In this document: piece by piece, positions 2,255-10,187 of the stretch
How the letters are laid out: each line of letters begins with the position of its first letter
How positions within the stretch are numbered: the stretch's first letter is position 1
From: Candidatus Zhuqueibacterota bacterium
GTDB taxonomy: Bacteria > SM23-31
Direction: 5' to 3'
NCBI GenBank assembly: GCA_022562855.1
Contig: JADFON010000042.1
Coordinates: forward strand, 1 to 10,187
DNA length: 10,187 nt
The notes under the pieces: model-generated
Database searches by the model: none
What the model was told of the DNA's origin: nothing
What the model saw: the letters and a program-made list of their open reading frames with translations, nothing else
Translations under genes and position numbers: made by a program

Positions 2255-3793
<1,539 letters not shown>

Positions 3794-3838
3794 TTAATGA
3801 TAACACTTAGATTTTTTTGGAATATTTATTTTTGTAAC

Positions 3839-3897
3839 CGCAATCTAAAGTTTGCCCCGCAGCGACCACTGCGCGGCGGTACAAGTTTTAAACTGCG
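3839..3897. repeat. Long imperfect palindrome in the atpH-atpA gap
   Basis: The left arm (3839-3862) and the right arm (3869-3897) are inverted copies of one another around a 6-base loop CGACCA (3863-3868). The arms begin and end with CGCA/TGCG. They share a TAAA core, a TTG step, a CCGC block and a terminal CGCAG/CTGCG stem next to the loop. I pair about 22 positions, with a few mismatches, some G-U pairs and a 5-base bulge. Smaller nested dyads are GCAATCT/AGTTTGC (3840-3855) and AGTTT/AAACT (3884-3894). Transcribed with the operon it would fold into a strong hairpin. No long T run follows, so it is not a standard intrinsic terminator. It may be a REP-like dispersed element or an mRNA processing or stability element. 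Confidence 0.75.
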
Positions 3898-3935
3898 TCT
3901 TACCACAATGATTGTCTAAAAAAAATACATAGAAT

Positions 3936-4472
3936 TCAATTCAACAACAGATTTTTCATCATGCTCAGGCTGTATAAGATAGAAGAGTCATAAACGGTGT
4001 TGTTTGCCCGGATTTGAAGACCGCCGACAATCGAAGGGTCCACCTCTTCCCGGATTGTCACCGTTTTATTTAAGATTTTCTCAAAAACCCGTTTAATTTC
4101 AGCATGAGTATCGCTATCAAGCGAAACCGCCGGTTTTACGGTGATCACTGTTCTATTTTGATAGCTGTCATAAAGTGTAGAAAAATGCTCATACATCTTT
4201 AATAGAAGTGTCTGCCGTTTTTTGTCGAGGACCAGGAAGAAAAAATTGAGTAATGTTGGAGTAACGGTATCTCCAAAAATTGATTTCAGAACCTTTTTTT
4301 TCTCGTTTAAATCAATTTTTGGTGAGAATAAAAAATACCGGAAATTGTCATTTTTTCTTAACATTCCGTCTATTATGGAAAATTCTTCTGCGACAGTATC
4401 AAGCACATTTCTGTCATGCGCGAGATTGAATACCGCTACCGAATACCGTCTTGCAAGCGATTCGGAAATCAT
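3936..4472 (-). CDS. atpH: ATP synthase F1 subunit delta (OSCP-like)
   Basis: Delta sits on top of F1 and holds it to the peripheral stalk formed by the b subunits. The 178-residue length is normal. The N-terminal helical domain starts ISESLARRYSVAVFNLAHDRN, the typical opening in which an Ala-Arg-Arg-Tyr motif begins the domain that binds alpha. The C-terminal part has VTIREEVDPSIVGGLQIRANNTVYDSSI (about 135-162), with the conserved DPSIVGGLQIR strand. The start codon lies inside the atpF end in an ATGA overlap (4469-4472), so translation is probably coupled. GGAG at 4481-4484, about 8 bases upstream, supports the start. The identification is firm from this motif and the position between atpF and atpA. 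Confidence 0.97.
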   Translation of the reverse strand: MISESLARRYSVAVFNLAHDRNVLDTVAEEFSIIDGMLRKNDNFRYFLFSPKIDLNEKKKVLKSIFGDTVTPTLLNFFFLVLDKKRQTLLLKMYEHFSTLYDSYQNRTVITVKPAVSLDSDTHAEIKRVFEKILNKTVTIREEVDPSIVGGLQIRANNTVYDSSILYSLSMMKNLLLN

Positions 4473-5230: not shown

Positions 5231-5234
5231 GAAG

Positions 5235-5241
5235 CCCTCCT
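5235..5241 (-). promoter_or_regulatory. Strong Shine-Dalgarno sequence of atpE
   Basis: The minus strand reads AGGAGGG ending 4 bases before the atpE ATG, the best match to the anti-SD in this window. Strong initiation at atpE is expected because c is needed in roughly 8 to 17 copies per complex. Confidence 0.8.
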
Positions 5242-5355
5242 GTTAATATGAAATTGATAAATTAAAAAATTAATTAATAGAAAATTTTACTTTCCAGATC
5301 TCGCAAAGCCGCTAAGCCGCAAAGAAAAAATTTATGATACAGGTTTAATACACTT

Positions 5356-5376
5356 TATAGATATAGCGCATCTATA
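5356..5376. promoter_or_regulatory. Perfect 7-base dyad, possible operator, upstream of atpE
   Basis: Arms TATAGAT (5356-5362) and ATCTATA (5370-5376) are exact inverted copies around the 7-base spacer ATAGCGC. The dyad overlaps the candidate -10 box of the promoter proposed at 5371-5399. Either a bound regulator or simple AT-rich coincidence could explain it. Confidence 0.3.
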
Positions 5377-5399
5377 TTTGATAACTTTAACTTGTCCAA
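5371..5399 (-). promoter_or_regulatory. Candidate sigma70-type promoter for atpE
   Basis: On the minus strand TTGGAC (5394-5399) and TATAGA (5371-5376) are separated by 17 bases. They match the -35 consensus at five of six positions and the -10 at four of six. Such a promoter would give a leader of about 130 bases before atpE and could restore expression downstream of the inserted element. The region is AT-rich, so chance matches are easy. Confidence 0.3.
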
Positions 5400-5478
5400 A
5401 ATACCCGGTGAAAATCACGTCTAATCTGCTGTAACTCAGTGTCATGTATTGTTTTTCTGCGTCCTTGCGTTTTTGTCC

Positions 5479-5496
5479 CGTGAGGGATGGCTCACG
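5479..5496. repeat. Short hairpin just downstream of atpB
   Basis: CGTGAG (5479-5484) and CTCACG (5491-5496) are perfect 6-base inverted arms around GGATGG. The hairpin lies about 30 bases after the atpB stop and could slow 3' exonucleases or weaken read-through. No T run follows it on the minus strand, so I do not call it an intrinsic terminator. It is part of the right arm of the inverted-repeat element. Confidence 0.4.
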
Positions 5497-5526
5497 CACG
5501 AGAGATTATTTTAATTAAAAGTCCGG

Positions 5527-9944: not shown

Positions 9945-10187
9945 TATCTCATCATCCGTTTTTATGTATAACCGGGTACGTCACGCGATTTTCACTTAAG
10001 ACCTGACTACTTTTACCGGCAAATATATAGATAAGAAATATATAATTATCTGCCGATATTAGCAAGGGTTTTTATAGATGCAGGAAGGACTAACATCTTG
10101 AAGATTTAACTGTATTTTACCCACTTATTGTCAGTACTGTCCGGTTAAACAATACTTTCGTCATCTTAGCCTGCCTGCCCCGTAATT
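9945..10187. other. Non-coding region upstream of parA
   Basis: No gene is supported in these 243 bases on either strand. No rsmG or mnmG is visible, although these often precede parA. The region holds a dyad at 10017-10055, a short palindrome ATCTTGAAGAT (10095-10105), a CAGTACTG palindrome (10132-10139) and a GCCTGCCTGCCCC word (10169-10181) at the edge. I could not find a convincing promoter: TATACA near 9963 on the minus strand has no good -35 box. Confidence 0.6.
10017..10055. repeat. Interrupted AT-rich dyad upstream of parA
   Basis: Outer arms CGGCA (10017-10021) and TGCCG (10051-10055) and inner arms GATAA (10030-10034) and TTATC (10046-10050) share one axis only roughly. The word AAATATATA occurs twice in the same orientation between the outer arms. 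It could be a regulator site or a hairpin in the parA leader, but the stems are short. Confidence 0.35.

Follow-up and report, generated by a model that had tools for sequence, protein, structure and literature searches.

We predict, with a probability of roughly 80%, that the core of a 59-bp imperfect palindrome between atpH and atpA belongs, as a divergent copy, to a REP-like family of dispersed palindromes with about 40-50 copies in the genome and related ones in other genera of the phylum, and that this copy most likely reached the spacer once the lineage had separated from its nearest sampled relatives. We found no published report of the family, and the phylum in which it was found is represented by six genomes: the genome analyzed here (G000) and five relatives (G001-G005), which together form the comparison within the phylum.

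The window, by which we mean the whole stretch of 10,187 bases that was analyzed, is a complete contig (C27) of a fragmented 2.5 Mb assembly that is 79.6% complete. Based on sequence reading, its minus strand encodes parA, parB, an M23 peptidase, a bactofilin, small membrane genes, and atpB, E, F, H, A, G, and D. Among named AtpA sequences, those of Caldithrix and KSB1 assemblies are the closest (69-72% identity). The atpH gene for the F1 delta subunit (3936-4472, minus strand) has homologues in 41 of 60 genomes, and the product of atpA (F1 alpha subunit; 2255-3769, minus strand) has 72% identity to Caldithrix AtpA. The open reading frame table places between them a spacer of 166 nt (3770-3935, minus strand). 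It is AT-rich outside the hairpin and includes a putative Shine-Dalgarno sequence of atpA (AAGGAG, 3778-3783, minus strand). The atpE-atpB spacer of the same operon (5231-5526) is 296 nt long and has no copy of the core repeat family. Upstream of parA, at 10001-10070, is an AT-rich hairpin (palindrome 18/29), the GC-corrected fold of which is as strong as that of the atpH-atpA hairpin.

The palindrome (3839-3897) has nested dyads, and 19 of 29 positions match its own reverse complement by Watson-Crick pairing without gaps. In the operon transcript it is predicted to form a hairpin without a U tract (3834-3902, minus strand), with 23 pairs once G-U pairs and a bulge are allowed. Folded alone, this segment has an energy of -28.1 kcal/mol, compared to -18.2 +/- 2.7 in dinucleotide shuffles (z -3.7, 1/200), and a repeat of the shuffle test gave z -3.5 (2/1000). 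A terminator scan of both strands of 3834-3902 found no terminator-like site and no T run, which does not fit an intrinsic terminator with its GC-rich stem followed by a T run. The earlier note, which was made from the sequence alone, had described a stable hairpin without a T run between atpH and atpA, with about 22 paired positions in 59 bases; the counts of 19 and 23, the position inside the spacer, and the fold (z about -3.6) agree with this description.

The fold of the complete 166-nt spacer is unremarkable (z -1.25 to -1.6). In its MFE structure the outer arms of the hairpin are re-paired elsewhere, although in a longer mRNA context these arms are predicted to pair with a probability of ~0.77. 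After GC correction, other 70-mers in the window have equally strong folds, and the palindrome score of 19/29 is reached by six centers in 209 kb of the same genome, with none higher. Equally stable windows nearby and centers of equal score are what would be seen if the palindrome had arisen by chance, with its fold and its family resemblance both coincidental. The bare hairpin is uncommon without being exceptional; it goes beyond chance through the family membership of its core.

The word GTGACCACT was seen again in a list of strong intergenic hairpins from other contigs. With one mismatch allowed, the pattern GYGACCACTNNGYGG has 14 sites in the genome (1 for the reversed control), and with three mismatches allowed, the pattern CRYRKWGYGACCACTAYGYGG has 17 sites (0 for the reversed control). 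The family near-palindrome in the window is the central word CCCGCAGCGACCACTGCGCGG (3856-3876, plus strand), and the family consensus is about TCACRTAGYGACCACT(Y)ACGTGGCGGGA. A covariance model, R2, was made from 17 aligned copies with the window copy left out. At E<=1, a rough value as for all the covariance models used here, R2 has 48 matches in the own genome, 14 in G001, 3 in G004, and 3 in G005; the search of G002 and G003 at this threshold gave no match. We put the copy number in the own genome at about 40-50, an uncertain figure given the fragmented, incomplete assembly with several copies near contig ends. These copies are mostly like TCACRTAGYGACCACTCACGTGGCGGGA, and those of G004 and G005 are like TTTATTTTCACAAAGTGACCACTTCGTGGCAG. 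The family center, CCACGTAGTGG, is the most over-represented 11-mer in the sampled contigs excluding the window, some of which were chosen for holding copies. Other over-represented words in the sampled contigs of this genome (GGGACAATGACAG, TAGCACAACGGG, and GCCTGCCACTA) suggest that there are more dispersed repeat families.

Outside the phylum, 2 of 187 genomes gave matches (G090 and G136). Those in G090 were rejected as terminator-like palindromes, and those in G136 were not counted, as at least one looks like chance. An exact 24-mer of the element was not found in viral contigs, nor was the family consensus found in phages; its sole match in plasmids, of 21 bases, was judged to be chance. 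Rfam has no match to the hairpin.

By a simple rule that considers ORF length only, 39 of the 48 own copies (~80%) and all 13 of the relatives' copies examined are outside ORFs, with the intergenic background estimated from a subset of contigs. Copies sit between genes in all orientations, including in short gaps between co-directional genes. The core palindrome is ~20 bp and the outer arms are variable. The two flanks of one copy pair with each other more strongly than do flanks exchanged among copies (p 0.0015 overall, p 0.011 for own copies alone), thus nested palindromes, with copy-specific outer arms on a shared core, are a trait of the family, as in the window. The arms of the relatives' copies differ in sequence yet stay paired. 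A second palindrome, GTCAGGGACGACCC, adjoins about six copies of the family. There is no excess of compensatory pair changes in 17 copies and a modest excess in 55 copies, the alignment of which was fitted to structure; covariation was dropped as proof of RNA function on these two results.

A 20-bp core that is nearly symmetric, dispersed, and conserved in sequence, with little compensatory change in 17 copies, might also be bound by a protein, as a genome-wide operator or a site for a nucleoid protein. We consider this very unlikely, since copies occur in all gene orientations and often far from starts, the nested copy-specific arms and the neighboring second palindromes fit repeats better, and the arms vary in relatives while pairing is kept.

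The 41-nt core in the window (3846-3886, plus strand) scores 20.7 bits with R2, and the next best place in the window scores 7.7. Its genome-wide E-value with R2 is 0.19, among the weakest of the copies. A second model was built because the pattern that supplied the R2 seeds had itself started from the window. This model contains 36 copies that no pattern ever picked (25 from the own genome and 11 from other genera), and with it the core is by far the top match within the window, at 17.9 bits and E 2e-5 (E 1e-3 over 528 kb); its independence is incomplete, as the 36 copies were gathered with R2 and the family was first noticed via the window hairpin. None of 4000 palindrome-preserving permutations of the 59-mer reaches the score of the core (best 5.9 bits, compared to 17.9). 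A coincidental resemblance could accommodate the R2 E-value of 0.19, but a chance palindrome is highly improbable given the E-value of 2e-5 that the 36-copy model assigns to the core within the window and the 0/4000 permutations. The window copy has GCAG/CTGC where most copies have RTAG or AAAG arms, and it is likely, based on sequence similarity, that the core is a divergent member of the dispersed family.

The outer arms of the palindrome have no copy elsewhere by BLAST or by a single-sequence model. A BLAST search of the whole spacer against the own genome, its taxonomic family, phages, and plasmids found no real second copy, and a covariance model of the 69-nt hairpin, run over the phylum, found only itself and its own other strand. 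The suggestion in the earlier note of a dispersed REP-like element therefore stands for the 41-nt core, with 48 matches in the genome, mostly intergenic, and matches in three relatives, but not for the outer arms. Overall, the interpretation given in that note is supported in part.

At the orthologous site, the atpH-atpA spacer of G002 (a genome of the same taxonomic family, with AtpH 49% and AtpA 81% identical) is 55 nt long and contains another, small hairpin, and that of G003 is 27 nt long and has no hairpin. Neither site has a copy of the family, and the pairing is not conserved in relatives at the atpH-atpA locus. In more distant loci most atpH-atpA spacers are shorter than 60 nt. No shared element was found in the long atpH-atpA spacers of other phyla, which have a few hairpins that are strong but unrelated. 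In a Caldithrix assembly, the atpH-atpA spacer (L047:2833-3000) is 168 nt long, consists of short tandem repeats, and folds strongly (z -3.5). In G004 the atp operon appears to be broken at this Fo/F1 boundary, with an unrelated ORF after atpH (MTAEIAILNKTAIALAADSAVTIP..., proteasome-like by eye; L020 on C110) and unrelated short ORFs before atpA (L131 on C29). As this hairpin is missing between atpH and atpA in both G002 and G003, it is most likely not a conserved cis-regulatory RNA of the atp operon.

This comparison bears on two functions proposed in the earlier note. Neither an RNase processing site by which the Fo/F1 ratio is set nor a binding site at the atp operon finds comparative support: the 55-nt and 27-nt spacers of G002 and G003 lack the element, and the longer spacers of distant genomes share none. 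A dedicated processing or stability hairpin would combine cleavage nearby with an exonuclease block and yield unequal Fo (atpB-E-F-H) and F1 (atpA-G-D) messages. The hairpin is strong, has no U tract, is located between the last Fo-side gene and atpA, and is like the E. coli hairpins that end stabilized operon segments (PMC5927463). We nevertheless find such a dedicated role unlikely, given that it is not conserved in G002, G003, or the longer spacers elsewhere and that its core is accounted for by a repeat dispersed between unrelated genes; processing could hold as a side effect of the repeat.

The hairpin could alternatively be part of a translational switch for atpA, in which the 3′ arm (UUGCGGUUAC) would have two alternative partners: the 5′ arm, or GUAACUGCAA, which lies between the Shine-Dalgarno sequence and the start codon. 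The alternative pairing is present in the MFE of the full spacer, and parts of the region are predicted to pair with a probability of ~0.3 with the hairpin sequence and ~0.06 without it. However, by our estimate chance alone would give ~0.5 complements of 10 bp in a spacer as long as this one, the hairpin would fold ahead of the alternative pairing while the RNA is being made, the pairing of the start codon is predicted to be unchanged, and there is no conservation in G002 and G003. We regard a switch as the least probable of the explanations considered.

We favor the entry of a repeat copy. The shorter spacers without a copy suggest that it most likely arrived between atpH and atpA once the lineage of G002 had split off; the copy may instead have been lost in the relatives. 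No insertion junction or target duplication is definable at the window copy. A transposase acting in trans may have brought it in by way of a single-stranded hairpin. Inside the operon, transcription should turn the copy into a strong RNA hairpin that lacks a U tract, and the copy appears to be tolerated. The hairpin may incidentally slow 3′-5′ exonucleases, which would favor the upstream Fo messages. It is unlikely that the REP-like palindrome has been recruited for a function at the boundary of Fo and F1 genes, where it would set the Fo:F1 subunit ratio in this lineage by blocking exonucleases or by competing for the atpA start region.

The presence of a copy inside a core operon suggests that such elements are tolerated there and provides a natural test of their effect on subunit stoichiometry. 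The core is common to several genera without a GTAG or CGTC tag and without a flanking transposase gene, which raises the question of the agent that spreads or maintains the family.

In E. coli, stable hairpins without a U tract mark the ends of stabilized operon segments (PMC5927463). The atpH-atpA hairpin is similarly stable, lacks a U tract, and is located between operon genes, and by analogy it might also shift the Fo:F1 message ratio as a side effect. Many of the protective E. coli hairpins are conserved in relatives and are in coding sequence (PMC5927463), whereas the atpH-atpA hairpin is neither. REPs are extragenic palindromes of 20-40 bp. Most of them carry a GTAG or CGTC tag that is left unpaired, and the GTAG type is tied to RAYT genes (PMC3733652, PMC2817692). 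The family resembles REPs in size (a core of ~20 bp, in the range of about 20-40 bp) and in its many dispersed, mostly extragenic copies. Its alignment has no unpaired GTAG or CGTC tag at the foot of the stem, with GTAG inside the stem of some copies only, and no family match was found in 13 loci of the phylum with Y1_Tnp genes, in an incomplete assembly. Because size, copy number, and extragenic location agree but the tag and RAYT flanking are missing, we call the family REP-like; it is a dispersed palindrome and no REP proper.

The own genome encodes three Y1_Tnp (RAYT-like) genes (L266 on C119, L269 on C347, and L275 on C53), and two of these are flanked by palindromes of other families, of the GCGTCAAGGACT type and the GGCGGGGTCAGGGACGACCCCGCCTAC type. 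The second palindrome that adjoins some copies of the present family also flanks the RAYT-like gene on C347. The palindromes of this type (C347) and of the C119 type share the genome and the intergenic niche of the present family but differ from it in sequence. The C347-type palindrome has GTAG at its end and neighbors a gene for a Y1 transposase, neither of which is seen with the present family. In common with the GTAG- and CGTC-tagged REPs and BIMEs, the family has a short palindrome in tens of mostly extragenic copies (PMC3733652, PMC2817692), nested and possibly composite arrangements, and expected transcription inside operons. Unlike REPs and BIMEs, it has more diverged copies and a core that is conserved across genera.
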